A DNA stretch of 64,000 nucleotides from Hyphomonadaceae bacterium TMED5. GTDB taxonomy: Bacteria > Pseudomonadota > Alphaproteobacteria > Caulobacterales > Hyphomonadaceae. The position numbers and the translations under genes were made by a program. The notes below the pieces were generated by a model. The model saw nothing but the letters and a program-made list of their open reading frames with translations. It was not told where the DNA came from and did no database searches. Positions 17,836 to 53,028 of this stretch are shown piece after piece; position 1 is the stretch's first letter, and each line of letters begins with the position of its first letter. Location of the stretch: NCBI GenBank assembly GCA_002173095.1, contig NHBK01000009.1:744001-808000 (forward strand). The letters are read 5' to 3'.

Positions 17836-19311
17836 TTAGAAGGCGGCCTGCGCGCCCAGCATGAACACGTCTGTCGTCGCGTCACGGTCAGACCATGTGC
17901 TGCCATCGGGGAAGTTGCCGCCGGACACGAAGTTCAGAGGCGCGAACCCATCGACATGGATGTATTCGCCGAACAGGTTGAGGTTTTCACCCAGATAACG
18001 TGCATAGCCGAGAACGAGCTGGTTCTGGCGTTCCCATGGCGCGCCATCATCGCCTGCGATGAAGTTAGAGAATTCTGCAGAGACTGCAGAAATTCGGCGT
18101 CCGTTCGGCAGGTACTCGCCAAAGCCATAACGACCACCAACCGTGAATGCGCTGGTGCGTTGCGCTTCATACACGCTGAGTGGGTTAGTCGGGTCTGGAA
18201 CGGCAGAGCCCGGCCATTCTTCCGTGGTGGAGGCAAACTCACCCAGAAATTCGATGTCGCCGAAATTCAGACGGCTATATACCGAGTATGCCGGGTTGTT
18301 TTCCGTGCACGGATTGAAGTGGAAAACCGGATAGGCCTGACAGTAAGCTGAACCATGCGTGTAGCTCGCGCCGAACATGCCCTGGCTGTTTTCACCGAAC
18401 GGCATTGTATAGCGGGCATCTACAGCGAAGTTGTTCACGCGGGATGGAACGTTTGTGTCATTGACTGGCGTGTTGTGAGCGCGGAACTGAGCGCCGCCCT
18501 GAATAGCCATAGCTCGCAGCATGAGACCATCACGAATATATCCAAACTCAGCGCCGTAAGCGAGGCCAGAGAAGGCGTGCCAGTTGGTGGAGTTGGTGAA
18601 TGGGCTGACGGTGTCATTGAGGCCGAATGGCGTATCGAGTTTACCGATCGCCGCAAAGAATGGTGAACGATCAAGGTCGCCAAAGAGCAGATATGCACGG
18701 CGGCCCACGAACTAGTTGCGGGTTGTCGCGACGATTGTGCCTGATCCGAAATTCTGTTCCGGCGCATACAGCATTTCGATATATGCGGTGATCCAGTCAT
18801 TCACCTGTGCGGTGACGGCAATATTGGCGGAATGGATGAGCGCTTCAGACACGTCGCCGCCAATCTGGTTGGCAGATGTCGGGTTACGCATCAGATAGCC
18901 AAATTTGTCGTCGGTATTGCTGTTCTGATAGTTTGCGATCGCAATAACCTGACCAGACAGGGTGAGCGAACTTGTCAGCTCATCGTCCTGGCGCGCCTGC
19001 AATTGCAGGACGGGCTTCGTGTTCACGTCTTCAGCGTGGTCGAGCACACGGAAGGAATAGTCTACATTGGTAGAGACAAAGCCCGTTTCGTTTGTCGCCG
19101 CCGCTTCGACGGATGTTTCCGGAACGCGGATAAGATCCGTTTCTGCACGGAGTTCTTCGACTTCCTGACGCAGTTCGCGGTTCTGTTGTTCCAGCCGTTC
19201 AAGGCGTTCCAGCAATTCTTCATTGGAAATGCTCTGAGCGAGAGCAGGAGTGGTGCTGAGCGCAAGACAAGATACACCTGCGGCCAACACGAAAGCTCGT
19301 GTAAGATTCAT
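17836..19311 (-). pseudogene. Outer-membrane porin (LbtU-like) interrupted by an in-frame amber codon
   Basis: Read through, this is a 491-residue outer-membrane protein: signal peptide (LAAGVSCLALSTTPALAQ), a coiled-coil (EELLERLERLEQQNRELRQE), then a beta-rich barrel ending in LGAQAAF with the C-terminal Phe typical of porins. Residue 200 is a TAG stop (plus strand 18712-18714). The reading frame after it continues the homology without any shift (FVGRRAYLLFGDLDRSP), so one base change has split the gene. The first part alone (199 residues) would be exported but lack most of the barrel; the GTG at 18708 has no signal peptide. It resembles siderophore/carbohydrate porins of the LbtU type; the exact substrate is unknown. 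It is either a recent pseudogene, a strain polymorphism or a sequencing error. Confidence 0.75.
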
Positions 19312-19432
19312 GATTTTCAATCCCCGTTCTTTTCAAAGCATGCTTCTTCTGACCGTCGCGCGCGCCTGCGATTCCGGTCGGCATGACTGAACGAGTACAG
19401 GTTTCAGGAATTTCTGAATCAAGTGTTTACAG

Positions 19433-21462: not shown

Positions 21463-21990
21463 ATGCGGGCCGCATTTTTTCTGACAGCAATTCTGGCAAG
21501 TTCATCATTGATGATGGCGTCAGCCGGGCCAGACGATTTTCATCCGGGCACGGTGATTGAGGGCTATGGCAATATTGCGAGCGTAGAAGACCCACGGCTG
21601 TCGAGTGAGACTGAATTTCACATTGCATATGATGTCGCCAGCGCGGCTGAAGAGGGGGCGGTCAGTCGCAGCTTTGTGACGCCTGCGCGTTTCCTGAATA
21701 TGCATGTGGACGCAGGCGTTCCGGCAGAAAATATCCACCTTGCGGTGGTCGTTCATGGTGGCGCTTTTAAAGACCTTTTGAATGACGAGGCCTATGGCGC
21801 TGAGAACCCGAACGGGCCTTTAATAGCACAGCTGATTGATGCCGGCGTGACCTTTGAACTGTGCGGTCAGACGGCCGCCTATCGCGATGTGAGTGCGGAA
21901 GACCTGTTGCCTAGGGTAACGATTTCGCTCTCAGCGATGACGTCACACGCGCTTTTGCAGCAGCAGGGCTACACACTTAACCCGTTCTGA
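21463..21990 (+). CDS. Secreted DsrE/DsrF-like family protein
   Basis: A 175-residue protein with a cleavable signal peptide (AAFFLTAILASSSLMMASAG). The body shows the DsrE-like core: FLNMHVDAGVPAENIHLAVVVHGGAF, then LIDAGVTFELCGQTAAYRDV, with one Cys in the position of the family's reactive cysteine. Periplasmic DsrE homologs are found near sulfur or redox genes, but the role of this type is not known. A GGGAGG motif precedes the ATG. It lies between the two DUF885 genes on the opposite strand. Confidence 0.8.
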   Translation: MRAAFFLTAILASSSLMMASAGPDDFHPGTVIEGYGNIASVEDPRLSSETEFHIAYDVASAAEEGAVSRSFVTPARFLNMHVDAGVPAENIHLAVVVHGGAFKDLLNDEAYGAENPNGPLIAQLIDAGVTFELCGQTAAYRDVSAEDLLPRVTISLSAMTSHALLQQQGYTLNPF

Positions 21991-22075: not shown

Positions 22076-22188
22076 AAAAAGGGAAGCCTTGGCCTCCCTT
22101 AAGTGTATTGTTTTTATGTGATTTTAGTAGGCACCGAAGTCGCGGCCAAGTGTGGGGGACAGGATGACGGGGCGCGAACCTCGGTGCC
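22076..22188 (-). ncRNA. Candidate small regulatory RNA
   Basis: The minus strand from about 22188 has no coding potential but strong RNA features. The first 59 bases fold on themselves: GGCACCGA (22188-22181) pairs with TCGGTGCC (22137-22130), extended by GGT and CGCG pairs, leaving a C-rich loop with CAUCCU and CCCCC. A linker follows, then an intrinsic terminator at 22100-22076: a 9-bp stem with a 4-base loop (one G-U pair) and TTTTT. On the plus strand the same stem has an A/C mismatch and no U tract, so the minus strand is the transcribed one. A promoter fits upstream. I do not recognise it as 4.5S, 6S, tmRNA or RNase P. The C-rich loop could pair with ribosome sites. Confidence 0.62.
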
Positions 22189-22198
22189 ATTTGATATA

Positions 22199-22227
22199 TA
22201 TTTAGCATTTTGCCCAAAAAATATCAA
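22199..22227 (-). promoter_or_regulatory. Housekeeping promoter of the small RNA
   Basis: Minus-strand TTGATA (22227-22222) and GCTAAATA (22206-22199) match the Caulobacter housekeeping pattern TTGACGS-N10-14-GCTANAWC with 14 bases between the elements and 7 of 8 matches in the -10 block. Transcription would begin near 22188, the first base of the long hairpin. Confidence 0.55.
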
Positions 22228-22420
22228 GCTTCGCATAAAAATATTGCACAATTTAAGGATGATTTTTTCGAGGTGTGTAACTAGCGACCTGAAATTGTTC
22301 AGAATATTCTGAATCCGGACAAAAATTAATTTCTATTCTTCTGGGGAATTAACAATATTCCAATGGGGAATTCCCTCTCTGCGTGTGGAATCAGCATGCG
22401 ATTTTCGACTCACTGATGCA
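22228..22420. other. AT-rich spacer with no recognised feature
   Basis: I see no ORF with a ribosome site and no strong hairpin between the small RNA promoter and the terminator of the second DUF885 gene. The stretch is distinctly AT-rich compared with its neighbours. Confidence 0.6.
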
Positions 22421-22479: not shown

Positions 22480-24360
22480 TTATTCCGCTTCGGCCTTCAC
22501 GCTTGCGATCCAGTTATCAACTCGAACTTCGAGCAGGTGGAGTGGAAGGCTGCCGCCGCCGAGAAGGGCATCGTGGAATCCACGAATGTCGAAATCCTCG
22601 CCGAGTTCTTCCTCCGCATTCTTACGCAAATCCTGAATGAAGATCATGCCGACCTTATAGCCGGTCGCCTGGCCTGGCATGACCAGATAGCGTTGGATTT
22701 CAGACAGTGCCTGAGCTGAGGTGATGGCCGAGTTCGCTTCGAAATATTCAACACCTTGTTCGCGGGTCCAGCCGCGCGCGTGCATGCCCGTATCTACAAC
22801 GAGGCGTATGGCGCGCCACATTTCAGAGCCAAGGCGACCAAACTCAGAGAGCGGATCTTCATAGGTGCCCGGTATCTCTGTAGCCAGCCATTCTGAATAG
22901 AGCGCCCAGCCCTCAGTATAGGCACCAAAGAATTGCTGTGTACGGAATTGAGGAATGTCCGTCAGCTCCTGTGAAATCGCGATCTGCATATGGTGGCCCG
23001 GAATGGCCTCGTGATACGCAATCACCTCGATTTCACGCTTCGGCATAGCCGTCATGTCAGAAAGGTGAGCGTAATACGTGCCCGGACGGGAGCCATCCAG
23101 AGATGGCGGGAAATAGTGCTGAGCCGCACCATCCTGCTCGCGGAAGGATTCAACCCGGCGCACAACCACGTCTGCTTCTGGCAGAATGCCGAAGAATTCC
23201 GGGATGTGCGTGCGGATATTGTCGATGTCTGCTGTGGCCGCATCGATATAGCCCTGACGACCTTCATCGGTGTTCGGGAAGTAGAGGCGTTCATCATCCT
23301 TGGTTTCGCGAAGGAAGACGAAGAACTCCTGAAGGCTGCCTTCAAAACCGAACTCATCTTTGATTGCGATCATATCTTCACGAAGACGTTCAACTTCGGC
23401 GAGACCCAGTTCGTGGATCTCGTCCGCCGTCATGTCGGTGGTGGTGTGATATGAAAGCAGATATTCGTAAAAGGCCTGCCCATTTGGAATGGCGGTCAGG
23501 CTGAAGGAGTCTTCAGTGTTCGCAATGTCCTCATCGAACCAGCTGATAAGCGTCTGATAGCTGGTCAGGAAGTCGCCCATGAGCGCGGCTTCGGCCTCTG
23601 CGAGCAGTTCATCGGCGCGCTCCTGTGAGATGGTTTCGGCCTCAACAAGGCCCTGGATTTTGGTTTTCAGGTCAGCCCAGAGCGCTGAATCTTCACCTTC
23701 AGTGAAGGGCGCGCCTGTGATGATGGCTTCAGCCTGGTTCTGGGATTCCTCATAAGCAAATCCCGGTGCGCGAATGCCCATATCGGCGGCCATTTGTGCG
23801 TTGCCGAGCAGTGTGCTGAGCTCGCCAGCAAAGCCATTAATGCGCGAAATATAGTTTGCGACGTCTTCTTCTGTCTCAACATTCTGATAGTTGATCAGGA
23901 ATTGAGCTGGCCAGGCCTGTGCCTCAGACATCTGGTCGAAGACATAGAAATGGTGGCGCCATTCATAGGATTTCTCGCCCATATCCTGAATGTAGAACCA
24001 GAGGTCATAAGACAGCTTAGATTCTTCATCCAGCATGTCGTAATCGAACTCGGCTTCAAGCGCGGCGGTTGCCGCGCGCGCCCATTCCAGCTGTTCCAGC
24101 CATGTTTCAAAAGAGCGGTCGTCAACCTGATCGGCCAGTTCCGGGCGCCCCATAATGGTCAGCGTCTCCGGGCTGAACATAAGCTGTTCTTCATATTTCG
24201 CGTCAAACCATTCGGTCAGGCGCGCAGACTCTGCAGCGATTTGTTCTGGCGTGACTGCAGAAGCTTCGCTCGTGGTTGGGTCTGAAGAGGCGGGCGTGCC
24301 CGACTGGCCGCAGGCGGCGAGCGTCAGCGCAGCGGCTGAAGCAAGAAGAAGATTGCGCAT
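22480..24360 (-). CDS. DUF885 lipoprotein, putative zinc metallopeptidase (copy 2)
   Basis: A 626-residue paralog of the protein at 19491-21365. It has a lipoprotein signal (ASAAALTLAACGQSG, lipobox Cys 17) and an intact metal motif HEAIPGHH followed by GAYTEGWALYSEW. The same C-terminal block RYLVMPGQATGYKVG is present. The two copies share domain order throughout but are clearly diverged, which points to an old duplication with the DsrE gene and small RNA lying between. It is probably an envelope-anchored peptidase with a different substrate range from copy 1. Confidence 0.88.
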   Translation of the reverse strand: MRNLLLASAAALTLAACGQSGTPASSDPTTSEASAVTPEQIAAESARLTEWFDAKYEEQLMFSPETLTIMGRPELADQVDDRSFETWLEQLEWARAATAALEAEFDYDMLDEESKLSYDLWFYIQDMGEKSYEWRHHFYVFDQMSEAQAWPAQFLINYQNVETEEDVANYISRINGFAGELSTLLGNAQMAADMGIRAPGFAYEESQNQAEAIITGAPFTEGEDSALWADLKTKIQGLVEAETISQERADELLAEAEAALMGDFLTSYQTLISWFDEDIANTEDSFSLTAIPNGQAFYEYLLSYHTTTDMTADEIHELGLAEVERLREDMIAIKDEFGFEGSLQEFFVFLRETKDDERLYFPNTDEGRQGYIDAATADIDNIRTHIPEFFGILPEADVVVRRVESFREQDGAAQHYFPPSLDGSRPGTYYAHLSDMTAMPKREIEVIAYHEAIPGHHMQIAISQELTDIPQFRTQQFFGAYTEGWALYSEWLATEIPGTYEDPLSEFGRLGSEMWRAIRLVVDTGMHARGWTREQGVEYFEANSAITSAQALSEIQRYLVMPGQATGYKVGMIFIQDLRKNAEEELGEDFDIRGFHDALLGGGSLPLHLLEVRVDNWIASVKAEAE

Positions 24361-35933: not shown

Positions 35934-36018
35934 GCGGTCGTGGCGGAATTGGTAGACGCGCAGCGTTGAGGTCGCTGTGGGGCAACCCGTGGAAGTTCGA
36001 GTCTTCTCGACCGCACCA
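35934..36018 (+). tRNA. tRNA-Leu(GAG)
   Basis: An 85-base class II tRNA, including encoded CCA. Acceptor arms GCGGTCG (35934-35940) and CGACCGC (36008-36014) pair fully. The anticodon stem CAGCG/CGCTG encloses loop TTGAGGT with anticodon GAG at 35968-35970, and a variable arm follows (TGTGGGGCAACCCGT region). The T arm is AAGTTCGAGTCTT. It reads CUC and CUU codons. Confidence 0.95.
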
Positions 36019-51591: not shown

Positions 51592-53028
51592 TTAGAGAGA
51601 GCCTTCGCCACCTGTTTCAACAGCTTCCGTAGAAGATGCGAACACGGTTGGTGTCTCGTTTACGCCCCGCAGACGGTCGATGTCTTCACGCACCAGCTGG
51701 AATTCTTCAAGGACCGGGCCTTCAAGCTGGCGACCTGTTGGAAGGTCCAGAGACATAGCGTTGATATGCTCGCCATTCTGGATGACTTCATAGTGAAGGT
51801 GAGGGCCGGTGGAGGCGCCGGTTGAGCCGACATAACCGATAATGTCACCCTGTTGGACGCGAACGCCGGAGCGGATGCCTGGCGCATATCCGGAAAGGTG
51901 CGCGTAAGCCGTCTGATAGCCGTTCGGGTGACCAATGCGGATATAGTTGCCATAGGTGCTGAACATAGATGCACGTTCGATTGTGCCATTGCCCGCAGCC
52001 ATGATTGGCGTGCCTGTAGGCGCCGCAAAGTCAGTGCCTTTGTGCAGGCGGCTATAGCCCGAAATCGGGTGACGGCGATAACCAAAGTTCGAAGACAGGC
52101 GCGCACCGTTAATAGGTGTCTTCATCAGGAATTTACGGGCGCTTTCGCCATTTGAGTCGTAATAGTCCGTAATGCCGTCATCAGAGGCCGTGAACTGATA
52201 GAATTCACGATTGGTGGCGTATCCATTCAGTGCTGCGAAGACGATATCGCCGCTGCGAACATAATTGCCGCGCTCATCGACATATTCTTCGAAAATGATT
52301 TCGAACTGGTCGCCTACGCGCATTTCGCGCTGGAAGTCGACGTCATAAGCGTAGATCTGAGCGAAGTCATAAACCTGCGTGTCATGCGCGCCGGCATCGA
52401 GCGCTGCTTCGTAGAGGCTGGTTTCTACTGTGCCTGCAACACGGCGGGTAACGGGCGCCAGACGTGTGTGGAGCTCATGGGCTGCAAAGCCGCCATCGTG
52501 AGATCGGGAGACAACCAGGCTTGCTTCGGACTCATGGCGGAGTGTCAGGCCAATGAGACGCGTTGCTTCCGGGTCTTCTGCGGTTGGAGCCGCTTCAAGG
52601 TGAGCTGTAACTTCCAGGCCCGCGCGTACACGGCGTGGGTCGATATAGTCATTGTCGTAGAGGGAATAGAGCGCTGCGTTTGCTTCACCGCGATCTACGC
52701 CAAGGCGGTCCATCAGATCAGTAAGCGTGTCGCGCGGCTGAAGTGCGTCTGTACGTTCGAATGTCAGCGGCTGCGGCTCAAGCTCCTGAAAGGATGTCAG
52801 AATGACTTGCGGTTCTGCGGTGAGTGCAGGTGCTGCAATTTCGCTTGCGCTCAGCGACGCCAGCTGGACGTCTGGAGTTTCCGAAGTCGGGGAGGGGGAA
52901 GACGTCGCTTGCCAGCTCAGAAGACCCATGCCGCCAACGGCGAGGGCAACAACACCGATTGATAATTTTAGCCGCCCGATTTTCCCGGAATTGGTAGTTT
53001 CCGACTTTGGATCAAATACTCCGACCAC
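51592..53028 (-). CDS. M23 family metallopeptidase (murein endopeptidase-like)
   Basis: A 478-residue inner-membrane-anchored peptidase. One TM near the N-terminus (about residues 24-42), a LysM/OapA-like central region (about 90-280), and a C-terminal M23 domain with the zinc motifs LHKGTDFAAP and HLHYEVIQNG. It probably cleaves peptidoglycan cross-links in cell wall growth or division. Divergent from ydbH. Confidence 0.92.
   Translation of the reverse strand: MVGVFDPKSETTNSGKIGRLKLSIGVVALAVGGMGLLSWQATSSPSPTSETPDVQLASLSASEIAAPALTAEPQVILTSFQELEPQPLTFERTDALQPRDTLTDLMDRLGVDRGEANAALYSLYDNDYIDPRRVRAGLEVTAHLEAAPTAEDPEATRLIGLTLRHESEASLVVSRSHDGGFAAHELHTRLAPVTRRVAGTVETSLYEAALDAGAHDTQVYDFAQIYAYDVDFQREMRVGDQFEIIFEEYVDERGNYVRSGDIVFAALNGYATNREFYQFTASDDGITDYYDSNGESARKFLMKTPINGARLSSNFGYRRHPISGYSRLHKGTDFAAPTGTPIMAAGNGTIERASMFSTYGNYIRIGHPNGYQTAYAHLSGYAPGIRSGVRVQQGDIIGYVGSTGASTGPHLHYEVIQNGEHINAMSLDLPTGRQLEGPVLEEFQLVREDIDRLRGVNETPTVFASSTEAVETGGEGSL

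Follow-up and report, generated by a model that had tools for sequence, protein, structure and literature searches.

A predicted small RNA gene restricted to Ponticaulis, with a C-rich hairpin loop and a promoter and hairpin shared with urcA mRNA leaders

One example of a bacterial small RNA (sRNA) built around a C-rich loop has been described in Agrobacterium tumefaciens, where PmaR adopts a spoon-like form in which a long stem carries a single-stranded loop that contains several C-rich stretches (PMC6234868). In this system, the C residues do the pairing, the targets include murB and ampC, and the RNA is confined to Agrobacterium and one close relative (PMC6234868). Another example is GsrN of Caulobacter crescentus, in which an exposed C-rich 5' loop is the most conserved part and pairs with the G-rich leader of katG (PMC5869019). 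Transcription of GsrN depends on the stress sigma factor SigT/EcfG, and the gsrN gene lies near the stress-response genes ecfG, nepR and phyR in most Caulobacteraceae (PMC5869019). A further free-standing sRNA of a related lineage is ChvR of Caulobacter, whose transcription is regulated (PMC6237742) and which is compared here by its description only. No small RNA of the marine genus Ponticaulis was described in the literature searched.

The locus considered here lies in a Ponticaulis genome, within a 64-kb stretch of DNA that was analysed as a whole (the window). Direct reading of the sequence places an sRNA gene on the minus strand at 22227-22076, inside a 489-nt gap bordered by a DsrE gene (21463-21990, plus strand) and a DUF885 gene (22480-24360, minus strand), both identified by Pfam. 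A sequence-only reading had proposed a complete minus-strand small RNA gene in this gap, and all the elements that it listed were found where it had placed them. The promoter consists of a -35 element, TTGATA (22222-22227, minus strand), whose TTG is invariant in all seven related units, and, after a 17-nt spacer, a -10 element, TAAATA (22199-22204, minus strand), which lies within TGCTAAATA and whose T-A-n-A pattern is kept in the stand-alone orthologs. The promoter is present where the earlier reading had placed it, and the block spacing given there needs correction, as 15 nt and not 14 separate TTGATA from GCTAAATA. A simple sigma-70 scan leaves this promoter unlisted because it requires a T at the end of the -10 hexamer, which here ends in A. 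Ten bases separate the -10 element from a 59-nt 5' hairpin, GGCACCGAGG...CUUCGGUGCC (22130-22188, minus strand), which is recovered by folding and by compensatory changes and is closed by pairing of GGCACCGA with TCGGTGCC; the predicted start of the transcript is 22188 or a few nt earlier. Its loop holds both CAUCCU and CCCCC, as had been noted, and the C-rich stretch CCCCGUCAUCCUGUCCCCCACAC (22150-22172, minus strand), invariant in four genomes, is the presumed pairing region. An A-rich spacer of variable sequence follows, unpaired in all folds (22101-22129, minus strand), and then an intrinsic terminator, AAGGGAGGC-CAAG-GCUUCCCUU with a U tract (22076-22100, minus strand), found by terminator scan and folding. 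The strong terminator that had been claimed is present, with a GC-rich stem and a U tract that is short (5 U). Hfq-dependent sRNAs usually end in a U-rich tail; here about five U follow the stem, and the A-rich spacer could serve for Hfq.

Folded as a minus-strand RNA of 113 nt, the region reaches -44.3 kcal/mol against -25.1 ± 3.0 kcal/mol in dinucleotide shuffles (z -6.34), in line with the long 5' hairpin first read at 22188-22130, and the plus strand of the same region folds unremarkably (z only -1.49). At gathering cut-offs Rfam 15 holds no family for the sRNA, which agrees with the view that it is not a known housekeeping RNA, and the whole window gives only a tRNA (35934-36015); at a relaxed cut-off, the only match is a spurious microRNA on the strand opposite to the sRNA. 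Nor is the region explained by a conserved ORF, as had been said of it, for indels downstream of the hairpin shift the frame between orthologs. Taken together, promoter, structure, terminator, conservation, compensatory changes, the lack of an Rfam match and the lack of a conserved ORF support a free-standing small RNA gene; it is a real, new, Ponticaulis-restricted predicted sRNA gene, and ordinary in kind.

In a blastn-type search of 61 genomes, the whole unit was found at a related locus in three of the six other Ponticaulis genomes (G001, which is P. koreensis, G004 and G006), at 74-77% identity and E values of 6e-26 to 5e-31, with a similarity that starts some 80 nt upstream of the RNA, extends through the end of the terminator and is lost beyond. 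All orthologs have a DUF885 gene 5' of the sRNA, and in these other three genomes a GST gene intervenes between the two. The loop CGTCATCCTGTCCCCCACA is invariant among the window and the three orthologs, as is GCGCCCCGTCATCCTGTCCCCCACAC of the loop region in an alignment of the four genomes. A scan of 84,980 species genomes for the exact core of the loop found it in P. koreensis DSM 19734, Ponticaulis sp. SP186 and Hyphomonadaceae UBA1849 and in no Agrobacterium record; 14 further single matches, scattered over unrelated lineages, were taken as chance. For the three Ponticaulis genomes with no blast match, the syntenic gaps were extracted and searched without filters. A diverged ortholog was found in G003 (L067:1657-1757), with promoter TTGTCATATTTTGTTCAAAATGCTAACAAT, loop ACCCCCCTGTCCCCACA and a U tract directly after. 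Model R1, in whose building this copy had no part, scores it at 16.2 bits, and model R2, which was trained on five stand-alone copies only, this one among them, at 68.9 bits. The G005 site has undergone rearrangement, and the unfiltered search of the syntenic gap revealed no copy there; since no free-standing copy was found in either G002 or G005, the sRNA is not essential to the genus. Searches with R2 of 40 whole genomes with laxer filters gave nothing in 19 other genera, and order-wide searches (R1, 299 genomes; R2, 398 genomes of 59 genera) gave only Ponticaulis, bar one loop-less look-alike, with the limit that searches of more than 40 genomes use stricter filters, which miss the diverged G003 copies and may miss distant relatives. 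Weak R1 matches in other genera were terminator-plus-hairpin look-alikes without the C-rich loop, and a three-mismatch match in G099 sits in unrelated sequence. Elsewhere in the window, a porin-like gene (17836-19320, minus strand), a single ORF in relatives, is broken by an in-frame stop near 18712, across which a relative's protein aligns in one frame at 70% identity; the gene may be a pseudogene, a case of read-through or a sequencing error.

Across the seven copies it is plain to see that the stems have been rewritten around a preserved C-rich loop core. Compensatory changes in the 22130-22188 stem, which the sequence-only reading had proposed to look for in related genomes and whose lack it would have taken as a refutation, are present: 13 of 19 pairs have changed on both sides, against 4.3 ± 1.6 in shuffles (0 of 500 reach it), and standard pairs fill 91.6% of the stem cells, against 31-44% when the partner is slid by 1-3 bases, figures which flatter the structure in that the alignment had been made to fit the model and consists of related rows. 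One stem pair reads C-G, U-G and U-A across the window and the three orthologs, and A-U/G-U exchanges are seen among orthologs in the stem of the terminator. The pairing register in the middle of the stem differs slightly between the window and the three orthologs, where a one-base bulge shifts and the length of the stem stays equal. The C-run of the loop is kept also in the diverged copies of G003 and in the urcA leaders described below.

The promoters are likewise conserved beyond their hexamers. Between the -35 and -10 elements, all seven share the pattern TTG-N5/6-T4-6-G-NN-CA-NN-RTG; in the window, the spacer contains the inverted repeat TTTTG-GG-CAAAA (22208-22219, minus strand), a candidate regulator site whose T(4-6)G-NN-CA-NN-RTG form is kept in 7/7, and the G003 unit that begins at L067:1657 has the perfect palindrome ATTTTG-TT-CAAAAT in its spacer. 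In the G006 ortholog the spacer motif is repeated 21 bp upstream with 12 of 13 positions identical, and the window has an imperfect copy, TTTTTATGCGAAG, also 21 bp upstream (22229-22241, minus strand; 9/13). Sequence conserved within the spacer points to a regulator that would be bound there. Only one site in the 64-kb window, the sRNA promoter itself, fits with fewer than four mismatches a pattern that was drawn from these very sites, and a motif pattern search of seven genomes gave no other convincing unit. Elsewhere in the genus, matches to the promoter pattern fall inside coding sequence or among it and have no hairpin. The spacer motif was also compared with the ChvI site, and the published binding consensus, TTGC-N3-GCAA (PMC9731502), does not fit.

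What the sequence-only reading had missed is that sister species have the unit of promoter and hairpin at this locus also in the leaders of urcA-family mRNAs. In G003, two units lie on the same strand 1.3 kb apart. One is the stand-alone copy (L067:1657-1757); the other, at L067:329-423, has promoter TTGCCATTTTTTGCACATCATG and a hairpin with loop CCCATCCCCCACAACC and forms the mRNA leader for a small secreted protein of the UrcA family (26.7 bits for TIGR04433, against a cut-off of 25). This leader, which is absent from the training set of R2, is picked up by that model at 41.8 bits (E = 3.2e-5, 40 whole genomes). In G002, a urcA gene of the same subtype as that of G003 (31.3 bits) lies in the gap that follows the GST gene, and the leader of this urcA gene has the shared promoter motif and a hairpin with CTTCCTGTCCCCATC; the score of this leader, 17.5 bits, is weak by itself (E of some 0.01-0.03 over a few kb), and motif and place match. 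The leaders of G003 and G002 are like the sRNA in promoter motif, hairpin layout, C-rich loop and locus, and the window sRNA has the promoter TTG-N5-TTTTG-NN-CA-NN-RTG and the C-rich-loop hairpin that define the unit (R1, R2), whereas the urcA leader runs on into the urcA reading frame and the sRNA stops at its terminator. The urcA subtype with such a leader was found only in G002 and G003 and in none of the window genome, G001, G004, G005 and G006, and other urcA genes, whether of Ponticaulis or of the family at large, have leaders that lack the unit. Because a module of promoter and hairpin is common to the sRNA and to urcA mRNAs at the same locus, the two probably arose from one unit, and they may respond to one signal or have partners in common. 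One possible course, proposed here tentatively, is that the sRNA was born from the urcA leader, the module having been duplicated and one copy having lost the reading frame and gained a terminator, with both forms retained in G003.

Other urcA genes offer leaders of different kinds. In the Ponticaulis genes L070-L075 and L079, a second conserved leader, GTAGGGAGCAGTGATCC...GGCC...GGAAGGACACTG-AAAATG, lies at most about 80 nt before the start codon; pairing of CAGTG with CACTG and of TCC with GGA would hide the Shine-Dalgarno (SD) sequence, and this leader is a candidate riboregulator of urcA. The urcA upstream regions of other Hyphomonadaceae (L113-L140) have blocks that are conserved genus-wide, among them GCTGCA-N4-GCGA repeats and GGTTTCCTCCC-ATG, and long predicted hairpins.

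The relation to urcA also admits readings in which the loop would not act on many mRNAs. The sRNA could imitate the hairpin of the urcA leader and titrate its protein or RNA factor, as urcA leaders at the same locus carry the same promoter and C-rich-loop hairpin and G003 has both forms, about 1.3 kb from each other; such a decoy is unlikely, however, given that the subtype, and with it any leader to mimic, was not found in the window genome and the four others named with it, and that the stems of the sRNA and the urcA leader have no common sequence. Alternatively, the locus could be the remnant of a urcA gene whose coding part was lost, still transcribed and terminated and without function, in keeping with the urcA genes with such a leader that occupy the corresponding gap of G002 and G003 and are missing where the sRNA stands alone. 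This we consider quite improbable, in view of a loop that is invariant across orthologs of 74-77% identity, of the presence of both forms in G003 and of a terminator kept through A-U/G-U exchanges; with loop, stem and terminator all kept, a functionless remnant is unexpected.

In a third reading, the hairpin would belong to a longer mRNA, as its 5' untranslated region or as an attenuator, and that mRNA would run into the DUF885 gene at 21365-19491, the next gene on the minus strand, with whose SD (UUGGGGGG) the loop could pair (-21.2 kcal/mol, rank 0.03). Against this, which makes it very unlikely, a strong terminator follows the hairpin, the convergent DsrE gene lies in between, the next same-strand gene in G001, G004 and G006 is a porin, and the G-run is absent from the start of the DUF885 homologs of G002 and G003. 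That the locus acts as DNA (an operator cluster) or encodes a small protein, with no functional RNA, is scarcely credible: ORFs of 61 aa (minus strand) and 69 aa (plus strand) overlap the region and the promoter motif could be an operator, but the stem has compensatory changes, loop and terminator are conserved, the indels 3' of the hairpin shift any frame between orthologs, and no SD-preceded start codon was seen in the RNA.

The reading preferred here, which we hold to be on balance probable, is that of a gene for a free-standing, trans-acting regulatory RNA of Ponticaulis, about 113-118 nt long, under the control of a regulator, with a loop that pairs with G-rich mRNAs and an origin shared with the urcA leader. 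In such a system, a transcription factor on the T4-6G-NN-CA motif would control the sRNA, whose stable stem would display CAUCCUGUCCCCCACA in the accessible C-rich loop; the loop would pair with G-rich stretches of mRNA, mainly SD regions of the GGGGG(A) type, and this pairing would alter the translation or stability of the bound mRNAs. In its predicted fold, the sRNA is like PmaR in its long stem and C-rich single-stranded loop, and it is like it also in its narrow taxonomic range, but it belongs to another lineage, no link of PmaR to an mRNA leader is known, and the likeness noted here is one of design. With GsrN it shares an exposed, invariant C-rich 5' loop on a hairpin, as judged from the folds, whereas its promoter is of the housekeeping type (TTGATA-17-TAAATA) with no GGAAC motif upstream. 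The best reading by analogy is that it would work like PmaR or GsrN, to be filed as a member of neither.

The sRNA thus conceived probably acts by pairing with G-rich mRNAs; the complement of its loop, UGUGGGGGACAGGAUG, resembles an SD followed by a start codon, and the earlier suggestion that the C-rich loop acts on ribosome-binding sites is plausible. Among 789 start regions of contig C16, taken with no conservation filter, strong loop pairing was not in excess over shuffled loops. In a second test, limited to 191 start regions with a P. koreensis ortholog and to pairing conserved in place, 45 cases were found at -14 kcal/mol against 28.4 ± 6.9 for shuffled loops (0/40 shuffles), an excess that is less clear at -16 to -20 kcal/mol (3-6 of 40 shuffles) and gone at -22. 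This weak, non-specific signal may reflect only C-runs meeting G-rich SDs, and it names no target; taken individually, none of the predicted targets stands above controls, and the neighbours DsrE, GST, porin and urcA have ordinary loop-pairing values. The best single predicted partner of the loop, L157 (G000, contig C16, near 201632; -34.5 kcal/mol; GTGGGGGATGTGTGG-ATG), precedes a phosphate-binding-protein-like gene and is not above the maxima of shuffled loops. On the same contig, near 52827 on the minus strand, a leader (L149, TGTCCCCCATAAATAGTCTGGGGGACATAATG) forms a hairpin that hides the SD GGGGGACA and of which one arm is nearly the same as the sRNA loop.

The Ponticaulis sRNA is a further case of the C-rich-loop design used by PmaR and GsrN, and the module that it shares with an mRNA leader is the added interest of an otherwise ordinary sRNA. 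If the sRNA did arise from the leader, a single C-rich loop would have two outputs, leader and sRNA. Ponticaulis species show the stand-alone form, the mRNA-leader form or both, which makes the birth of an sRNA from a leader, or its passage into one, open to study in one short locus.
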